A stretch of DNA of 33,863 nt from positions 1-33,863 of IMG/VR virus record IMGVR_UViG_3300031951_000682, one strand, 5' to 3'. Positions 4,177 through 24,779 of the stretch are shown here, piece after piece. This stretch comes from a virus. Numbering within the stretch: the first letter of the stretch is position 1; every line of letters starts with the position of its first letter. The notes beneath the pieces were generated by a model. The model was given only the letters and a program-made list of their open reading frames with translations. It was not told the origin of the DNA and did not search any database. A program made the position numbers and the translations under genes.

Positions 4177-5394
4177 ATGACAAGCTACATCAACCCCTAC
4201 ACTGGTCAGACGATCAGCCCATCACAAGTGGGCTATGTTGAACTGACCGTCTCGGCCGACACAATTCTTCAGTGGCCAATCAACGGCAACACCGACAACG
4301 TCGTCGCCAACATCATTGAAGTCACGGCGACCACCACGGGCATCGAGTTGTTCATGCCCCCGGCAACGTCTGTGTCCACTGGCCAGAGTGCGCTGATCCG
4401 CAACATCGGCGTCAACTCCTTCACCGTGGTGGACACAAGCGGCAACACGATTGTTTCCGTTGCTTCCGGCATCGCGCAATACATCTACGTCACCGACAAC
4501 AGCACCATCAACGGCTCATGGGAGACCGTGACGTTTGGCGCAGGAACTTCGGCGGCAAATGCAGCCACCCTTGCTGGCTTCGGCCTCAAGGCAGTGAGCA
4601 CCACGCTGAACACCGTTACTCCGGTCTCCACGTTCAGTTCCGACTACACCCTGCTGCCAGCAGACCAGTCGTCCTTGTACGTTTGGACTGGTGGTGCAGG
4701 CAACGTCACACTGCCCTCTGCTGCCGCTGTAGGGGCTGCTTGGTACGTCATCATCAAGAACGACGGCACTGGCATCCTGAACGTGCTGGCCACTGGCGCA
4801 AACACCATTGACGGCCAAGTGTCGAAGCAGCTTCAGATTGAAGAGTCTCTGGTGATCGTCTCCAACGGCACGACGTACTTCAGCTACGCCTATGGCCAGT
4901 CCTCCACGTTCTTCTTCACTCAGTTGACCAAGAACGTGACTGGTGGAACCGTGACGCTGACATCCGCAGAAGCGGCCAGCATCATTCAGGAATATCAGGG
5001 CACCCTTACGTCGAACTGCACGGTCATTGTTCCCCCGACAGTGCAGTTGTACTCGTTCCGAAACGACACAACTGGCGCGTTCTCTTTGACGTTCAGCACT
5101 GGCGCTGTTGGTGGGCTGACAGTCAGCTTGCCGCAGAACCAAACGATTCTTGCAATTTGCGATGGCACGAACGTTTACAACGCGCAGACATCGACCTCTT
5201 CGTTCATCAATGCACTGACGCTTGGCAACGGCTCTGCTGCCGCTCCTTCGCTGTCATTCACTGGCAGTGCGACCACTGGTTTGTACCTTGCCGCAAGTAA
5301 TCAACTTGGCTTTGCAGTGAACGGCCTGAACGCAGGCACGTTGACAGCAACAGGCCTGCTCATGCCTGTAGGAATCAACGGTGGAGCATTCTGA
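4177..5394 (+). CDS. Fibre-like virion structural protein
   Basis: 405 residues, starting two bases after the adaptor stop. The protein is Ser/Thr/Gly-rich and predicted nearly all beta. Two halves look like repeated beta-domains (TGIELFMPPATSVSTGQSA near 50 and GNVTLPSAAAVGAAWYVI near 175, both followed by similar strands). The C-terminus carries SLSFTGSATTGLYLAA, a short motif frequent near the ends of phage tail proteins. It is probably part of the tail or a short fibre; a true receptor-binding role cannot be shown. Its position between adaptor and nozzle suggests it is assembled at the vertex. The last base of its stop is the first base of the next ATG region (5394). Confidence 0.6.
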   Translation: MTSYINPYTGQTISPSQVGYVELTVSADTILQWPINGNTDNVVANIIEVTATTTGIELFMPPATSVSTGQSALIRNIGVNSFTVVDTSGNTIVSVASGIAQYIYVTDNSTINGSWETVTFGAGTSAANAATLAGFGLKAVSTTLNTVTPVSTFSSDYTLLPADQSSLYVWTGGAGNVTLPSAAAVGAAWYVIIKNDGTGILNVLATGANTIDGQVSKQLQIEESLVIVSNGTTYFSYAYGQSSTFFFTQLTKNVTGGTVTLTSAEAASIIQEYQGTLTSNCTVIVPPTVQLYSFRNDTTGAFSLTFSTGAVGGLTVSLPQNQTILAICDGTNVYNAQTSTSSFINALTLGNGSAAAPSLSFTGSATTGLYLAASNQLGFAVNGLNAGTLTATGLLMPVGINGGAF

Positions 5395-7412
5395 TGACAG
5401 CAAAGGTAATCGCCCTTCAAGTCGGCCCCGGCATTCAGAGGGACGGGACAATCTTTGCATCAGTGAGTTATGTGGACGGCAAGTGGGTGAGGTTCCAGTA
5501 CGGTCGCCCGAGGAAAATTGCTGGCTACAACGGAGCATTTCTGAACGCCTCAGGGATCAGTCGCGGGATGATCATGAGCGCAGAGAATGGTCTAAATTAC
5601 GTGATCTCTGGCTTCAGCAACGGCATCGAGCAGTGGACGACTGACAGCGATGACGGTGTGGGTTTTGGCCCAACCCCTGTGGAGCCAGTTGGATCACTGG
5701 CATCAATCACCATCACCAATCAAGGCTCCCTGTACACCAACGGCACGTACACCAACGTGCCAATCGTTTCTGCTGGTGGCTCTGGTGGACAAGCCACTGT
5801 GGTGGTGTCGAGCAACTTGGTTTTCAGCGTAACGATCACCAGTGGCGGCGTGGGCTACGTCCACAATGCATCGGTGACGATTGCCGCTGCCAGCATTGGC
5901 GGCACTGGCTCTGGCTTTGCTGGGTTCGTTGATGCCCTTACGACCTACGCCCCGAACCCAAACACCCTGTGGCAGTTTGACATCGGCTACGACGCCTTTG
6001 GCAACGGACAGAACAACCTGATTGCACACCCCGGCCAGAACTTGGCCGACATCTCATCGTCGGTGAACACGCGCCCCATGTTTGGCCCGTTCAGCGGCAC
6101 GACACTGCGCCCTGTTGGTGTGTTCACAGACACGGGCACCACGACCTCAGGATCGCCCACAGTGACGTTTGCAGCGACCAACGTAGGCATAGGTGCTGGC
6201 GTGTCCGTAACGGGCACTGGCATCCCTTCTGGCACCACCGTGGTCAGCGCTGAAGAGGTTTCTGGCGTGTGGACTGCCACACTGAGCGCCAACGCCACCG
6301 CAAGCGGCTCGGCAGTGCTGACCTTTGACAACAACATCGCCGTGTCTGGCGGCATCGTGATGCTGTTCCCGTACCTGTTCGTGTACGGCAACAACGGCTT
6401 CATCGGCAATTGCGCGGCTGGCGACTTCAACAACTGGACATCGGCCGACTCCAACAGGAACAACGTCTCCTCCACCAAGGTGGTCAAGGGCCTGCCAATT
6501 CGCGGCGGTACAACGTCGCCTGCTGGCCTGTTCTGGACTTTGGATTCGGTGGTTCGCGTCACTTACTCGCCAACGCAGGTGGGCAACCAGACGCTGTACT
6601 GGAAATATGACCTGATCACACAGCAGTCCTCCATCCTCTCATCGCAGTGCGTGATCGAGTACGACGGCATCTTTTACTGGATCGGCTCCGACCGTTTCCT
6701 GATGTACAACGGTGTCGTGCAAGAGGTTGAGAACAAGCAAAACAACAACTACTTCTTCGACAACCTGAACTACCGCCAGCGCCAAAAGGTGTGGGCAAGC
6801 AAGGTGCCTCGTTGGGGTGAAATCTGGTGGTTCTTCCCGTCGGGTGACAACGAAGAGTGCAACGACGCCATCATCTACAACGTGCGCGAAAAGTGCTGGT
6901 ACGACGCTGGCCAAGCCTTGGGTGCGCGCCGCTCTGCTGGCGTGTTCACCGAGGTGTTCCGTCGCCCCATCTGGGCAGGCAACGATCAGAACACGGCAGG
7001 CGAGTACACGCTGTGGCAGCACGAGACCGGAACGAACGAGGTGTACACCAATCAGGTCAACGCAATCGACTCGTTCTTTGAGACCAACATCATCGGCTCA
7101 CGCATGGGCCTTGTGGGCTCGATAGAGCAGCCCGGCGACAACGTGTGGACTCGCTGTGAGCGCGTAGAACCCGACTTTGTGCAGTCCGGCGAGATGACGC
7201 TGATCGTCACTGGTAAGTCATACGCTGAAGACGTTGACGACCCGTCTGAGCCGTATCCGTATGACCCCACCACGCTGAAGGTGGACATGAAAGAACAGCG
7301 CCGTGAGATGCGCATGAGGTTCAGGAGTAACACCCAAAACGGGAACTACTTCATGGGCCGTGTGCTTTTGAGCATAGACACAGGCGACGTGCGTGGAACA
7401 GGTAATCCATAA
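5394..7412 (+). CDS. Tail nozzle / stopper-like structural protein
   Basis: 672 residues. The N-terminus (GPGIQRDGTIFASVSYVDG, KWVRFQYGRPRKIAGYNG) and later parts (RFLMYNGVVQEVENKQNN, WWFFPSGDNEECNDAIIYN, EKCWYDAG) read like the beta-propeller-type nozzle or stopper proteins of P22 gp10- and SU10-like tails. A Gly/Ser/Thr-rich insert at about 80-185 and a TTSGSPTVTF-type insert at about 230-315 look like Ig-like or surface domains. By family, the protein would close the DNA channel below the adaptor. The assignment rests on position plus motifs. The next ATG overlaps its stop (TAATG). Confidence 0.6.
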   Translation: MTAKVIALQVGPGIQRDGTIFASVSYVDGKWVRFQYGRPRKIAGYNGAFLNASGISRGMIMSAENGLNYVISGFSNGIEQWTTDSDDGVGFGPTPVEPVGSLASITITNQGSLYTNGTYTNVPIVSAGGSGGQATVVVSSNLVFSVTITSGGVGYVHNASVTIAAASIGGTGSGFAGFVDALTTYAPNPNTLWQFDIGYDAFGNGQNNLIAHPGQNLADISSSVNTRPMFGPFSGTTLRPVGVFTDTGTTTSGSPTVTFAATNVGIGAGVSVTGTGIPSGTTVVSAEEVSGVWTATLSANATASGSAVLTFDNNIAVSGGIVMLFPYLFVYGNNGFIGNCAAGDFNNWTSADSNRNNVSSTKVVKGLPIRGGTTSPAGLFWTLDSVVRVTYSPTQVGNQTLYWKYDLITQQSSILSSQCVIEYDGIFYWIGSDRFLMYNGVVQEVENKQNNNYFFDNLNYRQRQKVWASKVPRWGEIWWFFPSGDNEECNDAIIYNVREKCWYDAGQALGARRSAGVFTEVFRRPIWAGNDQNTAGEYTLWQHETGTNEVYTNQVNAIDSFFETNIIGSRMGLVGSIEQPGDNVWTRCERVEPDFVQSGEMTLIVTGKSYAEDVDDPSEPYPYDPTTLKVDMKEQRREMRMRFRSNTQNGNYFMGRVLLSIDTGDVRGTGNP

Positions 7413-7654
7413 TGATTGCCTACGATCCTCGTGGGATGACTTGGGATCAGTACTGCAAACTGATGGCCGAGTTATTTGCCCCTAACCAGTTGGGGTATGT
7501 AGAAGAAGAAAACTGGCGTAGCTGGGCTGATGGCTTGAGTGGTATCGGGTATTTCTCTGAATCAGCGATTCCCACCCACCATGGCTTTGAGCATTGGTAC
7601 GAATGGGCCGAGCGTGTAGCAGGCATTTTGACCGTGACTGTGGGGGAAATATGA
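7412..7654 (+). CDS. Small conserved phage protein, unknown function
   Basis: 80 residues, overlapping the previous stop (TAATG at 7410-7414). It contains MTWDQYCKLMAELFAPNQLG and WRSWADGLSGIGYFSESAIP, with a strikingly aromatic, Trp-rich composition (four Trp). No membrane segment and no catalytic motif is recognisable. It leads a run of four coupled genes that continues with the ACP-like protein and the ketosynthase. Whether it takes part in their activity or in tail assembly is unknown. Confidence 0.6.
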   Translation: MIAYDPRGMTWDQYCKLMAELFAPNQLGYVEEENWRSWADGLSGIGYFSESAIPTHHGFEHWYEWAERVAGILTVTVGEI

Positions 7655-7932
7655 ACTTTCTTGATTTACTGAACATGGTGGCGCGTGAGGCACGCCCTGC
7701 GCACCATTCACTCAGTCCTATGACGGATATGGAGACACCGTTCACAGAGACTGAACTTGACTCACTCGATGGGCTGATGATCGTCATGTACATGTCCATC
7801 ATCTATGGCATCGAAGACGATCTGGTGAAGGAATTTCACCCGGAGACGCCGCAAATCCTGTTTGACTTCATCCAGCAGCACAAGACTCAAGAGCCTGAGT
7901 CGATTGAGCAAGCCAAGGAGTTGATTAAATGA
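7651..7932 (+). CDS. Acyl-carrier-protein-like protein
   Basis: 93 residues; the start at 7651 has GGGGGAA upstream and overlaps the previous gene's end, so longer upstream frames are not needed. Residues 36-78 match an acyl carrier protein: LDSLD with Ser38 in the DSL phosphopantetheine-attachment motif, then a helix (MIVMYMSIIYGI) and an acidic third helix region ending FHPETPQILFDFIQQH, as in the TVQ-x-x-x-x-YI end of ACP. The N-terminal 30 residues differ from typical ACPs and the C-terminus has an extra Glu-rich tail. It overlaps the ketosynthase gene by ATGA (7929-7932), which strongly supports a partnership. Carrier function is inferred; it would need a phosphopantetheinyl transferase from the host. 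Confidence 0.6.
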   Translation: MNFLDLLNMVAREARPAHHSLSPMTDMETPFTETELDSLDGLMIVMYMSIIYGIEDDLVKEFHPETPQILFDFIQQHKTQEPESIEQAKELIK

Positions 7933-9044
7933 TTTACCTGAGCGACTACCGGATCGCGGCCACCCACATCACCAAACTCATGGAAGACATTCGCCACCCT
8001 CAGGTGGTGAATCTTTTTCCGGAGACGTTCGAAAAGATCAAGACTGGCCTGTTTTACGTGCCCCACCGGGTGGCCGACAAGGTGATTGACCAAGAGTTGG
8101 CCAAGACCTTGCGTGAGGACACCGAGGCCAAGACCGCATTCATTCTGGCGGCTGGCAACGGGCACTTTGCAGGGATCAACCCCGTCAAGTCCGAGCCCAA
8201 CAGCTTGATCTACGAATACAAGTTCCTGCCCCTGACGCTGACGCAGGTCTACGCCGGGCGCACAGCGCAAGCATTTGGGGCGTCCGACCACATCGTGACC
8301 GACTCCACCGCCTGCGCCTCGAGCATGAAGGTGCTCATGGACGTGCAGACCCTGATGCGCTTTTATGGCTTCAACCGGGTGATCGTGCTGGCCGTGGAAG
8401 ACCAAGTCAGCAACCTGACCCTCAACTTCTTCGGTGAAGCGCAGGCTTCGCTGGCTTGGAAGGACGAAAAAGAGGGTGTCAAGCCCTCGGCCTTCGACAG
8501 CGTAAATGGCGGCTTCCACGTGGGTCAGGGGGCCTGCTTGGCGGTGTTTGAGGACGAAGCAACGGTCAAGCGCCGTGGAATCACCCCCAAGGGCCGACTT
8601 TTGGGGGCCTACACGGCCTCAGAAGCCTGCGCCAATGCCATCGGCCAGACTGAGGGCGGCGAGGGCTTTGTGAGGGCCGCAGTGGGTGCTCTGAAGATGG
8701 CAGAACTGACCCCGGCGTGCGTTTCGGTGATCAAGACCCACGGCACGGGCACCAAATCCAACAATCGGGCTGAGAGATCAGCCATCGAATCGACGTTCAC
8801 GGACTTTGTGGCCACCTCCTACAAGCAGGTGATCGGCCATACCATGGGCGTGAGCGGCTTGCTTGAGACCTGCATGTTGATCGACAATATGACCAACGGG
8901 TTTGTGCCAAGCATTCCAAACAGAACAGAAGAGGACGACGTGTTCCTGTCGCACGACATCGAGGCTCCGAAAGGGGCCATTTTGTCATTGGCGGCTGGTA
9001 TGGGGAACGTGTACTCGGCCGCAGTAATGACAACGGAGTTATGA
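7929..9044 (+). CDS. Beta-ketoacyl-[ACP] synthase (FabF/KAS II-like)
   Basis: 371 residues, somewhat shorter than FabF (about 412), mainly at the N-terminus. The full Cys-His-His triad of decarboxylating ketosynthases is visible: Cys129 in DSTACASSM, His271 in KTHGTGTKSN and His304 in GHTMGVSG, with the conserved Lys299 five residues before His304. Spacings (142 and 33 residues) match E. coli FabF (140 and 37). FDSVNGGFHVGQGA matches the D-x-x-x-x-GFxxGxGA block. The gatekeeper loop GFGGTN of FabF is replaced by GMGNVY, with Met358 at the gatekeeper Phe position. Family members condense acyl groups with malonyl-ACP in the cytoplasm. The gene overlaps the ACP-like gene and is one base from the next, inside a block of virion genes. 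Confidence 0.88.
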   Translation: MIYLSDYRIAATHITKLMEDIRHPQVVNLFPETFEKIKTGLFYVPHRVADKVIDQELAKTLREDTEAKTAFILAAGNGHFAGINPVKSEPNSLIYEYKFLPLTLTQVYAGRTAQAFGASDHIVTDSTACASSMKVLMDVQTLMRFYGFNRVIVLAVEDQVSNLTLNFFGEAQASLAWKDEKEGVKPSAFDSVNGGFHVGQGACLAVFEDEATVKRRGITPKGRLLGAYTASEACANAIGQTEGGEGFVRAAVGALKMAELTPACVSVIKTHGTGTKSNNRAERSAIESTFTDFVATSYKQVIGHTMGVSGLLETCMLIDNMTNGFVPSIPNRTEEDDVFLSHDIEAPKGAILSLAAGMGNVYSAAVMTTEL

Positions 9045-9045
9045 C

Positions 9046-9477
9046 ATGCAAGTAGATTCAAAAAAGCAGAAGCTAAATACAGGCCAAATCATCGGCATTT
9101 TTCTGGAAAACGTGAAAAGTCCTCATCCCCCTGAAGTGATGATGCCTGCCATTCTGGATGAATTGAATCAACCCGGCACTGAGGTCAAGCAGTTTGGCAA
9201 CACGCTGTTTGAAGTCCACAAAGGCAAGGATGGCCAAGCCTTCTTCAAAGCATTCAATGCCGACACTGGCCCCAACTTCGTGGAGAACAGCAAGCTGTTT
9301 TCGGTGTGGGCTAAGAACGTTTTGGGCCTCAAAGTTCTGGTCACAGAATTTAACGATCCATCGCTTGAGCGGCTTTTCAAACTGATCTCCATGAACCCGC
9401 CGATGCCGGGCATGGGGTATCAAATTTTCAGATCAAAAAGCGGCAAAACCCGCATTGGTTTGAACTTGGGGGAATAA
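9046..9477 (+). CDS. T7 gp13-like small protein with degenerate GNAT-like features (tentative)
   Basis: 143 residues, starting one base after the ketosynthase stop. The order strand (GNTLFEVHKG), strand (DGQAFFKAFNAD), strand (GLKVLVTEFND), helix (PSLERLFKLISMN) and a final hairpin (GMGYQIFRSKSGKTRIGLNLG) resembles a GNAT acyltransferase fold, but the acetyl-CoA-binding Q/R-x-x-G-x-G/A loop is not visible. Similar small proteins stand directly before the internal virion proteins in other podoviruses, like T7 gp13, which is needed for virion assembly. Coupling to an ACP and a ketosynthase also allows the idea of an acyl-ACP-dependent transferase, but nothing in the sequence proves it. Confidence 0.5.
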   Translation: MQVDSKKQKLNTGQIIGIFLENVKSPHPPEVMMPAILDELNQPGTEVKQFGNTLFEVHKGKDGQAFFKAFNADTGPNFVENSKLFSVWAKNVLGLKVLVTEFNDPSLERLFKLISMNPPMPGMGYQIFRSKSGKTRIGLNLGE

Positions 9478-9478
9478 C

Positions 9479-11551
9479 ATGTCAGCAATTGTTGAAGCAG
9501 TCGGTGATGTTTTCGAGGCCGTAGGCGATGCCGTTGGATCGGTTGTCGAGGGCATCGGAAACATCGTTGAGAAGGTTGTCGATGAAGTCGTTGAGCCAGT
9601 CGTCAAGGCTGTAGGCAACACGATTGAGGCGGCGATGGATGACCCCCTTGGCACTTTGGTCAAGGTGGGCACGGCGGTGTTCGCTCCGGCTCTTTTGCCT
9701 GCCGTCAACCTTGGCTTGGCTGTGGCAAACGGCGTCCCACTTGAGAAGGCCCTGATCAACACTGGCCTGAACATGATCGGCGCTCAAGTCGGCAACTTTG
9801 TTGGCGGTCAACTCACATGCACGTTTGATCTTGGCTGCTTTGCAAGTGATGTGGTCACTGCTGGTGCCAAAGGTTTTGTCACGTCCGGCCTGAAGGGTGA
9901 CTGCGTGTTGGAGGGCACTGCTGGGGCAATGCTCAACAACGTGATGAACACGGGCGCAAAGAATCTTGCCTCTGGCAAAGGACTTTTTGGATGCGCAGCC
10001 ACCAGCACATCAGGCACCACTCAGTACGATCCGGACAGCTTGACCACGTCTGGTCTTCCTCAGGGTTGTCAAGGTAGCGCTCTCAACACAGGCCTTGGTG
10101 CAATGCCAAGTTGCGCTTCTTCCGGCAGTTTGGGTACTGTCACCGTCTCCGCTCCAAGAGGAGGTTTCTGTACCGACTTGACTTGCATATCTGGCAGTCT
10201 TGGCACCACGGGCTCCGCTGCCACAACTGATGCTGGCGCTATGACAGGCACTGGCGCTCTGGACACGGTAACGGTCACTGCACAGCGTCCTACCTGCACC
10301 GACATAACCTGCACGTTTAGCCCAAGCACAACAGATTCGTGCAAGGGCACCATGGTTGTCACCGGACAAAGACCCCGCGACACAGACGTGACATGCACGT
10401 TTGATCCAACAACCACTCTCTCTCCGGACGAAACCACCGATATGGGCACAGTGGTTGTCACTGGACAAAGGCCAACCTGCACGGATATAACGTGCGTCAC
10501 CGAATTGCCAGAAGTGGTGGTGACTGGAAAGCGCCCAGAGTGCGAACTTGGCATGTGCTGCAAGTTCACTGGGTTTAAGCCACCAGAGTTGAAACTGCCA
10601 AAGATCAACATTCCAAAGTCAAGGCAAGTGCAAACCGTCGGAACCGCTGGAGCATTTGGCTGCGGCGCGATCCCATGGCTGGACACACGCGACTCTCTGC
10701 TGCGCAACCAGATTGTTTTTGACAGGCCAACTGATGAAACGATCAAGCAAGCCAAAATCAATGACATGTACGGCCGCATGGATGGCTGCTTGGCCAAAGA
10801 AATGCAAGATCGATTTGGTGGCGTGCCTCAAATCAAACTCAAGCCCTTTGATGAGCCCGTGGGTGGTCTTCCGCAAGGCCCCGGTTTTGCAACTGGTGGC
10901 AACGTAGAGGGTACGGTGACGTACTGCTACAACCAAGATGCCAAGTACATGCCCAAGTTTGTCAATTGCGGCCCTGACTTCTTGACGAACTCTGCTGCAA
11001 GCAAGCGTGTGCCCCTGACGCACAAAGAATTGAAGCACCTACAGGCGCGCATCTCCCAGCACGGCAACATGGGTGGCTTGGCCTCTGGCGGTCTCCCCAA
11101 GAAGTACCAAGAGGCCATGCCGAAGGATCACAACCCAGAGTTCGTGACTGGCATGACTGGCTACTACGCTTGTGGCGGTGGCACTGGCCAGTCGGACGAC
11201 ATCCCGGCAATGCTGCACGATGGCGACTACGTGATGGACGCTGACGTGGTGGCGGCACTGGGCGACGGCTCCAGCAAGGCAGGACGAGCAGTCCTTGATG
11301 GCTTCCGCAGCCAGATTCGCCACAGCGAGACAGCAAAAGGCAAACCCGTGCCTGCGAAGATTGCAGACGGCGAGTACGTGTTCCCAGCAGGTTTTGTTTC
11401 AGCCCTTGGTGGTGGCGACAACAAAGCGGGTGCGAAGATTTTGGACGGCCTGCGCGAGAAGCTGCGCGCCCACAAAAGATCAGCACCCACCAGTAAAATA
11501 CCACCCAAGGCGAAATCCCCACTTGACTACATCAAGCAGGCGAAAGGTTAA
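9479..11551 (+). CDS. Internal virion / ejection protein with Cys-rich repeats
   Basis: 690 residues, first of four large genes in the place of T7 gp14-gp16. Residues 1-55 form amphipathic helical repeats (VEAVGDVFEAVGDAVGSVVEG), followed by a hydrophobic stretch near 60-85. Residues 219-362 hold five imperfect repeats of a V-V-T-G-Q-R-P unit followed by T-C-T-D-I-T-C, so cysteines recur at fixed spacing. The C-terminal 150 residues carry two copies of a DG-D/E-YV-x-x-A...ALG-x-G-x-x-x-AG-x-x-x-LDG unit, known from internal and tape-measure-like phage proteins. It probably leaves the capsid with the DNA. The number of cysteines is unusual for a protein folded in the cytoplasm. Confidence 0.6.
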   Translation: MSAIVEAVGDVFEAVGDAVGSVVEGIGNIVEKVVDEVVEPVVKAVGNTIEAAMDDPLGTLVKVGTAVFAPALLPAVNLGLAVANGVPLEKALINTGLNMIGAQVGNFVGGQLTCTFDLGCFASDVVTAGAKGFVTSGLKGDCVLEGTAGAMLNNVMNTGAKNLASGKGLFGCAATSTSGTTQYDPDSLTTSGLPQGCQGSALNTGLGAMPSCASSGSLGTVTVSAPRGGFCTDLTCISGSLGTTGSAATTDAGAMTGTGALDTVTVTAQRPTCTDITCTFSPSTTDSCKGTMVVTGQRPRDTDVTCTFDPTTTLSPDETTDMGTVVVTGQRPTCTDITCVTELPEVVVTGKRPECELGMCCKFTGFKPPELKLPKINIPKSRQVQTVGTAGAFGCGAIPWLDTRDSLLRNQIVFDRPTDETIKQAKINDMYGRMDGCLAKEMQDRFGGVPQIKLKPFDEPVGGLPQGPGFATGGNVEGTVTYCYNQDAKYMPKFVNCGPDFLTNSAASKRVPLTHKELKHLQARISQHGNMGGLASGGLPKKYQEAMPKDHNPEFVTGMTGYYACGGGTGQSDDIPAMLHDGDYVMDADVVAALGDGSSKAGRAVLDGFRSQIRHSETAKGKPVPAKIADGEYVFPAGFVSALGGGDNKAGAKILDGLREKLRAHKRSAPTSKIPPKAKSPLDYIKQAKG
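10133..10566 (+). repeat. Five coding repeats of a VVTGQRP-TCTDITC unit
   Basis: Within the 690-residue protein, units begin near residues 220, 261, 290, 324 and 346 with the pattern (T/V)-V-(T/V)-V-(S/T)-(A/G)-x-R; the last four have RP. Units 1, 2 and 4 are followed by C-T-D-(L/I)-T-C, unit 3 by D-T-D-V-T-C (first Cys lost) and unit 5 by a diverged E-C-E-L-G-M-C-C. The units are spaced unevenly by Ser/Thr-rich linkers. Confidence 0.7.
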
Positions 11552-11553
11552 AA

Positions 11554-13314
11554 ATGGCAAACTTACTGCAATCCTCGCAGAACAAACAAACGACAGCGCC
11601 GGGTTTTTACACCGACTACCTGAGTAACCTTGCAACCCAAGGCAAGACCGCCGCTGATCAGGCAGACTTTGTTGGTGCCCAGCCTCTGCAAACAAAAGCC
11701 TTTGAGCAGGTCTGCCAGAACTTTGGTGCCCAGCAAGCAGGCGTTACCGCTGGCAAAGGTCTGGTGGGCCAAGCGGCTCAACAAAACGTCACTGGCGCAG
11801 CGGCTCCCTTCCTGCAAGCAGGCACCAGCGCCAGCCCACTGAACGCGATGACGCCCTATGCCCAGACGGCCATGTGTACGACTGGCTACGAGGCTGGACA
11901 GCCTTTGGTGGGTCAGGGTGCAGCCATGTCTGGTTTGGGCGCTGCAAGCCCCTATCTGGGCCGCGCAGCAGGCACATGCGGTGCATGCGTGTCTGGCCAA
12001 TACGTCAACCAAGCCACCAAGCTGGACATGACTGGTGCGGCTGACCCGTACCTCAAGCAAGCGGCTACGAGCGGCGGCTTGAGCGCTGCAACGCCTTACC
12101 TCCAGAGAGCCACGACCACCAGCCCTGCTGACTTGGCCGCTTCGTACATGAACCCGTTCCTGAAGACGGCCGTGCAGTCGATGTCCGACATCGCCCAGCG
12201 CAACATCCGTCAGAACCTGTCGCCTATGGCAGCAGCAGCGGCCGTGGGCTCTGGCCAGTTTGGTTCACAGCGCGGTGCGCAGGTGCTCGGTCAAATCCAG
12301 TCACAGGCACAGCAAGACCTGAACAACCAGATCGCCCAGATGATGTCTCAGGGCTACGGACAGGCTCTGTGCGCTGCTGGCAAGCAAAACGCACTGGTGG
12401 CCAACGCTGGTAACACCGCAGGCACTTTGGGCCAGCAGCAGGCTTCCTTGCTGGCGCAGTTGGGTCAGACCTCTGGCCAACTGACTGGCCAGCAGATGCA
12501 GAACCTGATCAATGCAGGCAACGTGCAGGGCACCCTGACTCAGCAGCAAGCCAACTTGCTGGGCAACTTGGGCCAGACTGCTGGCACGTTGACCAACCAG
12601 CAGGCACAAAACCTGATCAACGCAGGCTCGAACCTTGGCAACTTGCAGCAAGGTGCGAACCAAATTGCGGCTGGTCTGGGATCGACTGCATCGCAGGCTC
12701 AGACTGCACAGAACCAAGCCAACCTCACTGCTGCACAGACTGCGGCACAGGCGGCAGCGAACCAAGGCAACCTGTTGAACCAAGCAGGTGTGAACATGGG
12801 CAACTTGGCACAGACTGGTGCCAACATGAACTTGGCTTGCATCAACGCCCTGTCTACCCTTGGTGGCCAGCAGCAGACGATTGGCCAGAACGAGCAGAAC
12901 TATCCGCTCACCAAGCTGCAATCGCTTGGCACTCTGCTTCAGGGCTACAGCATCCCGACTGGCACGAAGACTACTTTGTGCATGTCTCCATTGTCTGGCG
13001 TGGCCGCAATTGGCAGCGCAGGCAAGGCTGCAATCAAGTGCTTCCCCGGCATCAAGGGCACACTTGGCAGCATTATCGATGCCATAAAAGGCGGTGGCGG
13101 CGGTGGTGGCGGCACCAATCCGGCTAACCCATGCCTTGACAGTTGCGCATGCGTAAACGGCAGTGTTGGCGATTGCATCTGCTGCTCTTGCACCTGCATC
13201 TGCTGCTGCGTCTGCTGCGCAGCCGACGGTGGTTTGATCAAGTCCAAAGCACGTGGCTTCAAGGGTTGCGCTTCTACTTATTCACGTGGCGCTCTGCCAT
13301 CGAAGAAAGGTTAA
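11554..13314 (+). CDS. Internal virion protein, Gln/Ala-rich with a C-terminal cysteine cluster
   Basis: 586 residues. After an N-terminal LLQSSQNKQTTAPGFYTDYL segment typical of podovirus internal proteins, the middle (about residues 290-400) consists of tandem Gln/Asn/Leu-rich units built on GQQQ-x-x-LL-x-x-LGQT and QNLINAG, likely long helices. The end has a run of eight glycines followed by 13 cysteines in 29 residues (527-555), then a short basic tail. The N-terminal two thirds also hold scattered cysteines in odd places (EQVCQNF, GTCGACVSG). By position it corresponds to a T7 gp15-like ejection protein. The cysteine cluster could bind metal or form disulfides after ejection; nothing shows which. 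Confidence 0.6.
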   Translation: MANLLQSSQNKQTTAPGFYTDYLSNLATQGKTAADQADFVGAQPLQTKAFEQVCQNFGAQQAGVTAGKGLVGQAAQQNVTGAAAPFLQAGTSASPLNAMTPYAQTAMCTTGYEAGQPLVGQGAAMSGLGAASPYLGRAAGTCGACVSGQYVNQATKLDMTGAADPYLKQAATSGGLSAATPYLQRATTTSPADLAASYMNPFLKTAVQSMSDIAQRNIRQNLSPMAAAAAVGSGQFGSQRGAQVLGQIQSQAQQDLNNQIAQMMSQGYGQALCAAGKQNALVANAGNTAGTLGQQQASLLAQLGQTSGQLTGQQMQNLINAGNVQGTLTQQQANLLGNLGQTAGTLTNQQAQNLINAGSNLGNLQQGANQIAAGLGSTASQAQTAQNQANLTAAQTAAQAAANQGNLLNQAGVNMGNLAQTGANMNLACINALSTLGGQQQTIGQNEQNYPLTKLQSLGTLLQGYSIPTGTKTTLCMSPLSGVAAIGSAGKAAIKCFPGIKGTLGSIIDAIKGGGGGGGGTNPANPCLDSCACVNGSVGDCICCSCTCICCCVCCAADGGLIKSKARGFKGCASTYSRGALPSKKG

Positions 13315-24143: not shown

Positions 24144-24779
24144 ATGGATCAACTCGAAGAGATGCATTACTTTGCAACGCCTGTCTACGTGGTGCATAAG
24201 CCTGAATTCATTGACGCTGTGCGCACGGTGTCCAGCCGCTACGAAGAGGTCTCTCGTGAGCGCAAAAAGAACCCTGACTACGTCAACCTGATGACTGCCA
24301 GCTACGCGCATGAGCAGGAGTTGCAAGACTTCTCTCAGTACGTCTCGCAGACTGCTTGGAACATCCTTGCGTCGCAGGGCTACAACATGGATCAGTTGGT
24401 GACCTACTTCACCGAGATGTGGACGCAAGAGCACAACCACCTGTCCTCCATGGAGACCCATGTCCACGGGGCTGGATGCCAGATCAGCGCGTTCTATTTC
24501 ATCGACGTGCCCGAAAACGCCTGCAAGCTGGTGGTGCATGATCCCCGGCCCGGCAAAGTGATCATTAACCTGCCCGAGAAGGACGCCAGCCAGATCACCT
24601 TGGGGTCGCACCAGATCGTGTTCACACCCAAGCCCGGCGCGCTGATTTTGCTCAATGCATGGGTGCCCCACTCCTTCACCAAAAACATGGGCAATGAGTC
24701 CATGCGATTCGTTCACATGAACCTGTCGGTGGCTGTCGGTGATGAGCCCAAAGAGGACAACTCTGTGGAGGTGATATGA
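24144..24779 (+). CDS. 2-oxoglutarate/Fe(II)-dependent oxygenase
   Basis: 211 residues with GGAGAGAG before the ATG. The core matches the 2OG-FeII_Oxy_5 family: THVHGAGCQISAFYFIDVPE (candidate iron ligands His106/His108), VVHDPRP (from 130), PKPGALILLNAWVPHSF (His176 as distal ligand) and MRFVHMNLSV (Arg188 for 2-oxoglutarate). Such enzymes hydroxylate proteins, nucleic acids or small molecules; the substrate here is unknown. Many tailed phages of aquatic hosts carry one. It follows promoter P3 and overlaps the next gene by ATGA. Confidence 0.75.
   Translation: MDQLEEMHYFATPVYVVHKPEFIDAVRTVSSRYEEVSRERKKNPDYVNLMTASYAHEQELQDFSQYVSQTAWNILASQGYNMDQLVTYFTEMWTQEHNHLSSMETHVHGAGCQISAFYFIDVPENACKLVVHDPRPGKVIINLPEKDASQITLGSHQIVFTPKPGALILLNAWVPHSFTKNMGNESMRFVHMNLSVAVGDEPKEDNSVEVI

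Follow-up and report, generated by a model that had tools for sequence, protein, structure and literature searches.

Why should a phage carry a FabF-type ketosynthase (KS) and a small protein resembling an acyl carrier protein (ACP) in the middle of its virion genes? The window analyzed here, by which we mean the whole stretch of DNA, spans 33,863 bases; its virus record is linear and may be a fragment. A sequence-only reading had proposed that the two genes form a small acyl-assembly unit used during virion production, for example to alter host fatty-acid flux or to make an acyl group for a virion or lysis protein. Both open reading frames proved to be real, with an ATGA common to both, and the pair lies between a nozzle-type gene and ejection-type genes, as had been noted (Table 1). 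The gene between the KS and the ejection genes, which starts two bases past the KS stop and is called G2 here, had been overlooked. The small gene 5' of the ACP (cluster c6) probably falls outside the enzyme set, because it varies between phages, with other small genes (c12 and c19) taking its position in some. Elsewhere in the window (24144-24779), a 2OG-Fe(II) oxygenase-type gene was found (PF13759, E = 6e-11); such genes are reported near lipid genes in freshwater pelagimyophages.

Table 1. Features of the ACP-KS locus, in window coordinates
Feature	Position	Strand	Basis or remark
Nozzle/stabilisation-type virion protein (context)	5394..7412	+	PHROG 3287 virion structural protein, E = 3e-26
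80-aa gene, cluster c6, 5' of ACP	7412..7654	+	ATGA overlap with ACP gene
ACP, 93 aa	7651..7932	+	Profile vs PDB, AlphaFold2, fold searches, invariant Ser38
Ser38 codon, predicted phosphopantetheine site, DSLD motif	7762..7764	+	Sequence; invariant in 201/201
FabF-type KS, 371 aa, ATG start	7929..9044	+	Pfam, NCBIfam, PDB, FabF alignment
Catalytic Cys129 codon	8313..8315	+	Aligned to FabF Cys; conserved
Catalytic His271 codon	8739..8741	+	FabF alignment; conserved
Lys299 codon	8823..8825	+	FabF alignment; conserved
Catalytic His304 codon	8838..8840	+	FabF alignment; conserved
GNAT-fold protein G2, 143 aa, probable acyltransferase	9046..9477	+	AlphaFold2, Foldseek, VIA-align, invariant residues
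First ejection-type protein (c3), 690 aa; putative acceptor	9479..11551	+	N-terminus M[S/G/A][A/G/S][V/I]
Second ejection-type protein (c8)	11554..13314	+	Weak DNA ejection PHROG

On its profile matches and active-site alignment, the window KS is a member of the FabF-type beta-ketoacyl-ACP synthase superfamily that scores far below the equivalog cut-off for FabF proper and lacks its gatekeeper Phe. Pfam domains PF02801 (E = 6.7e-15, 55.6 bits) and PF00109 (E = 6.7e-7, 29.6 bits) both exceeded the cut-off of 20.8, and the best PDB match was a KAS II (E = 4e-22). The NCBIfam fabF model (TIGR03150) was matched at E = 2.5e-31, with 108.8 bits against an equivalog cut-off of 493.75. Cys129, His271, Lys299, and His304 were found at the positions claimed, aligned with the Cys, His, Lys, and His of FabF. 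These four residues were kept across 228 distinct phage sequences (those among the loci fetched) with a single exception, a C>R change, and a Glu was also conserved in the set. Thus, the catalytic residues and both ketosynthase domains are shared with Escherichia coli FabF (KAS II), but the phage enzyme is 42 residues shorter and lacks the stretch at about FabF residues 60-95, which carries basic ACP-docking residues. In addition, the gatekeeper Phe of the FabF C-terminal GFGG loop is replaced by Met358 (MAFFT alignment; Met358 in 221 unique sequences), and Asn279 stands where E. coli FabF has an Asp.

A recent acquisition of the KS from a host was considered and rejected. When 84,980 species of bacteria and archaea were scanned, the KS sequences matched were only 24-33% identical. 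In an IQ-TREE phylogeny, whose bacterial rows were picked by a motif and whose branches are long, 36 phage KS sequences grouped together with full support, set apart from bacterial KS by a very long branch. By this tree and scan, the KS is a deep virus-only clade. Records labeled as Listeria, Enterococcus, and Staphylococcus "phage" contained unannotated KS matches at 24-29% identity, and the plasmids searched gave no match.

The ACP was harder to recognize. On its own, the window protein had no Pfam match (PF00550 was not reached), and its only PHROG match was PHROG 28189, of unknown function. When a 43-member family profile was compared with the PDB, the entries listed were acyl carrier proteins, including those of respiratory complex I, with a best E value of 8e-5 and the DSLD motif aligned. 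PF00550 was matched weakly by 12 of the 43 members. AlphaFold2 predicted a four-helix ACP fold (pLDDT 88) for the 93-residue protein. Carrier proteins were the best Foldseek matches of this model (probability 0.99, although E was only 0.08) and were also the matches in VIA-align, where Z reached 8.0 over 74 residues, a middling value for a helical protein. Asp37 and Ser38, the latter being the DS[L/M] serine that opens helix II, were invariant in all 201 unique sequences. Family profile, predicted fold, and invariant serine together uphold the ACP-type identity that had been read from the Ser38 motif. Helix II typically carries three acidic residues in the phage ACP versus six in E. coli AcpP. 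This less acidic helix, together with the stretch missing from the KS, suggests that the phage ACP and KS are a private pair that does not feed host fatty-acid synthesis.

The two genes were inseparable in relatives. The ACP gene was directly 5' of the KS gene in 219 of 219 untruncated distinct phage KS loci, the remaining 9 of the 228 being cut by a contig end. In the reverse direction, an ACP-seeded scan found the KS adjoining the ACP in 76 of 78 loci, and the other two stop at a contig edge. An alignment-based scan of IMG/VR confirmed 243 relatives and another scan gave at least 543, so that a pair recurring in hundreds of contigs excludes chance. Among GenBank phages there was one close relative, MW202545 (Manatee Spring), with the same gene order and identities of 74% (KS), 66% (ACP), and 65% (G2). 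The dN/dS ratio was 0.04-0.15 for ACP, KS, and G2, which with the conserved residues indicates selected enzymes rather than relics. No related phage in the set had the KS but not the small gene, and apart from the single C>R change none showed decayed catalytic residues. Under strong purifying selection and inherited as one unit, the KS and ACP are, by computation, very probably active partners of each other.

No sequence match to the overlooked gene G2 turned up in Pfam, PHROG, or the PDB, and its identity came from predicted structure. Its AlphaFold2 model (pLDDT 94.9) had GNAT topology, and Foldseek returned GNAT acetyltransferases with a best E value of 3.6e-5. In VIA-align, HP0935 was matched with Z = 12.2 over 125 residues (rmsd 2.5), and the N-terminal acetyltransferase RimI was among the best matches (Z = 12.0). 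Across 171 unique sequences, residues S5, E39, G51, N52, N71, and D73 showed little or no variation, and N71 and D73 sit at the beta4-alpha3 turn, the donor-binding place of GNATs. By inspection, the CoA pyrophosphate loop R/Q-x-x-G-x-G/A was absent from this turn, where N71-x-D73-x-x-x-N77 is found instead. An ACP as the donor would explain such an absence, and so would an inactive structural GNAT. From the model, G2 is a probable acyltransferase.

The opposite explanation is that G2 is catalytically dead and acts as a scaffold or chaperone for ejection proteins, with holo- or acyl-ACP and the KS as a structural or regulatory partner (compare ACP elsewhere). Besides the lacking CoA-loop motif, it draws on genome position: T7 gene 13 (PF11090) and P22 gene 14 (DUF2824) lie where G2 does, between the nozzle or needle gene and the ejection genes, and Pfam calls T7 gp13 a probable scaffold protein and gives P22 gp14 no known function. 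No ACP or KS annotation is present at that position in T7 or P22. Sequence homology between G2 and T7 gp13 was undetectable by profile comparison (hhalign probability 0.2%). None of 45 G2 members matched DUF2824 (PF11039), and a DUF2824 protein of another phage was a weak fold match to G2. Chemistry is favored by polar residues that do not vary in the G2 donor site (171 sequences) and by the retained catalytic residues of the KS (228 sequences), and we regard a purely structural G2 as improbable.

Two genomic arrangements were found. Surroundings of the window type, in the order nozzle, small gene, ACP, KS, G2, and ejection proteins, accounted for 174 of the 228 KS, and in 53 the pair was located in a replication block, between an SNF2-type helicase and a small gene. 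At virion-type loci, G2 followed the KS unless the contig ended, lying a few hundred bases further on in L027 and L437. Six replication-type records extend as far as the ejection region (G002, G003, G005, G007, G023, and G027), and in all of them G2 was in its usual place without the pair. Late expression, which the sequence-only reading had expected from the location, was thus not upheld in that general form: the virion-block site is the majority arrangement rather than a rule, and expression of the pair may precede that of the virion genes where it sits in a replication block. What stands of the proposed acyl-assembly unit is a true KS-ACP pair with conserved residues and obligate pairing; its timing in late virion production is not general.

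A few loci departed from both patterns. In L405 and L406, the ACP abuts G2 (L406:3717-4459) and no KS was found in these records of 5.9 and 34.8 kb. G2 was also found without adjacent ACP-KS in nine contigs (L251, L395, L397, L398, L404, L413, L417, L427, and L431), which are short fragments, so that ACP-KS could lie elsewhere; the G2 of L404 is 77% identical to ACP-KS-linked G2 sequences. In L404 and L251, both short contigs, G2 comes immediately after the small gene c6, and ACP-KS is missing there in close relatives. Thus, G2 may have a role of its own. It may also just belong to the core virion genes of the group, in which case its co-occurrence with the pair would be weak evidence.

The replication-type records also provided a phosphopantetheinyl transferase. 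An AcpS-family gene (Pfam ACPS, E = 1.7e-14) was present in four of them: G003, G004, G030, and G042 (L476-L478). The phage AcpS genes belong to two lineages about 43% identical. In G003, the AcpS-type gene (G003:C1:30083-30448, minus strand) is on the same strand as ACP-KS and about 4 kb away. No phage AcpS was seen in eight virion-type records of 45-68 kb, where the host AcpS presumably serves. With AcpS genes in four relatives, formation of a functional holo-ACP is likely.

The main rival is auxiliary metabolism, in which ACP-KS would alter host fatty-acid synthesis (chain length or flux) for membrane change, lysis, or carbon use, with G2 as an unrelated morphogenesis neighbor. The FabF-type family of the KS, a gene order like that of E. 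coli acpP-fabF (adjacent, ACP then KS), the 53 of 228 KS in a replication block, and the occurrence of G2 without adjacent ACP-KS are all in line with it. However, the KS is no recent host gene (at most 33% identity, separate clade), and an ACP of its own accompanies it every time, although it would have no need of one with the host AcpP as substrate. The docking features differ from those of FabF and AcpP, the annotation of the relative MW202545 is without fabG, fabD, and fabH, and an ACP can lie beside G2 without a KS. We consider auxiliary metabolism possible, if on the unlikely side. An acyl group made for a virion protein is favored over host flux, on account of the adjacent G2 and the ACP-G2 loci without KS.

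If a virion protein is acylated, an ejection protein is the most likely acceptor. Of 146 distinct sequences of the protein after G2, 143 have Ser, Gly, or Ala as residue 2, and Ala, Val, and an amphipathic stretch usually come next. The window protein (9479-11551) and its homologues begin almost without exception with M[S/G]AVV, after which come amphipathic repeats (AVGDVVEAVGDVV). N-termini of the Ser/Gly/Ala type are modified by RimI-type GNATs. A small residue 2 (mostly Ala) is common in neighboring ejection proteins too, and the N-terminus as an acylation site is a hint only. Cysteine S-acylation was rejected as a general chemistry, since no cysteine was present in 49 of 64 c3, 28 of 40 c8, and 25 of 25 c10 relatives. 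The two ejection-type proteins of the window clade (9479-11551 and 11554-13314) are strikingly cysteine-rich, whereas most relatives' versions have no cysteine at all. The tail of the c8 protein (residues about 527-555) has 12 Cys within 25 residues, and that of MW202545 has 20 of 25. In T7, the ejection proteins gp14 to gp16 form a channel through the envelope, with gp14 inserting into the outer membrane (PMC8954989).

In the reading we prefer, the phage encodes an acyl-ACP module specific to viruses, and G2 uses the acyl group of this module, most likely on an ejection protein. Ser38 of the ACP would receive 4'-phosphopantetheine, from the host AcpS in window-type phages and probably from a phage AcpS in some relatives. 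The KS would then condense (or prime) acyl units on its dedicated ACP, and the acyl group would pass from the ACP to G2. No reductase or dehydratase was seen to go with the KS, a point against this chain. G2 would acylate a virion protein before packaging, the most likely acceptor being the exposed N-terminal Ser, Gly, or Ala of the 9479-11551 product, and the acyl group could help the ejection protein insert into the host envelope at infection. The computed part of this chain consists of the KS and ACP identities, the conserved residues, the obligate pairing, the GNAT fold, the position of G2, and AcpS in four relatives; from it we infer enzyme activity, holo-ACP formation, transfer from ACP to G2, the acceptor, and a membrane role. 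We put the full chain at a probability of roughly 0.4. Its boldest form, a virus-encoded protein lipidation system in which ACP, KS, an ACP-dependent GNAT, and sometimes AcpS acylate an ejection protein for envelope entry, is tentative and falls well short of even odds.

The same enzymes could also serve small-molecule synthesis, with ACP, KS, and G2 making a free N-acyl amino acid or signal-like amide that acts on the host or on co-infecting phages. An ACP together with an acyl-ACP-using GNAT follows the logic of FeeM/FeeL and LuxI, and the GNAT fold of G2 and the ACP-G2 loci without KS agree with it. However, G2 remains in the ejection block when ACP-KS moves, for which a virion role is the better fit, and no exporter, regulator, or amino-acid-activating gene was seen beside G2. 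A free N-acyl product seems very doubtful.

Acyl-ACP-dependent GNAT acyltransferases are known in the HlyC-type protein acyltransferases, in LuxI, and in the metagenomic FeeM with its ACP FeeL. The HlyC-type enzymes are reviewed in PMC8339906. The likeness of these systems to the phage trio lies in the proposed logic only, an acyl-ACP donor serving a GNAT-fold enzyme, and none of the three was among the structural matches listed for G2, which may still belong with them. As reported previously, acpP-fabF-fabG occurs in Rhodobacteraceae prophages and was read as host fatty-acid metabolism (PMC8224337), and an ACP in Alteromonas phage R22Y (PMC11705849) and fabF in freshwater pelagimyophages (PMC7029224) were read as lipid or fatty-acid metabolism; these precedents speak for the auxiliary-metabolism rival. 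The Rhodobacteraceae prophages (PMC8224337) share with the present phages an ACP and a FabF-type KS, but they include fabG, follow the host fab operon order, and have no GNAT-fold gene reported, a comparison made by description rather than by sequence. In the literature searched, which excludes preprints and most subscription journals, no published description of an ACP-KS-GNAT-fold trio was found.

Phage ACPs and FabF homologues have so far been catalogued among auxiliary metabolic genes, on the presumption that they aid fatty-acid synthesis in the host. The pair described here is specific to viruses, inseparable, and widespread, and an acyltransferase-fold gene in the operon of the ejection proteins usually goes with it. 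Should a virion protein prove to be where the acyl group ends, phages would own a lipidation system, and the route of ejection proteins into the cell envelope would become testable, as would the roles of P22 gene 14 and T7 gene 13. The lipidation reading, if true, would suggest that these two genes are, or were, acyltransferases.
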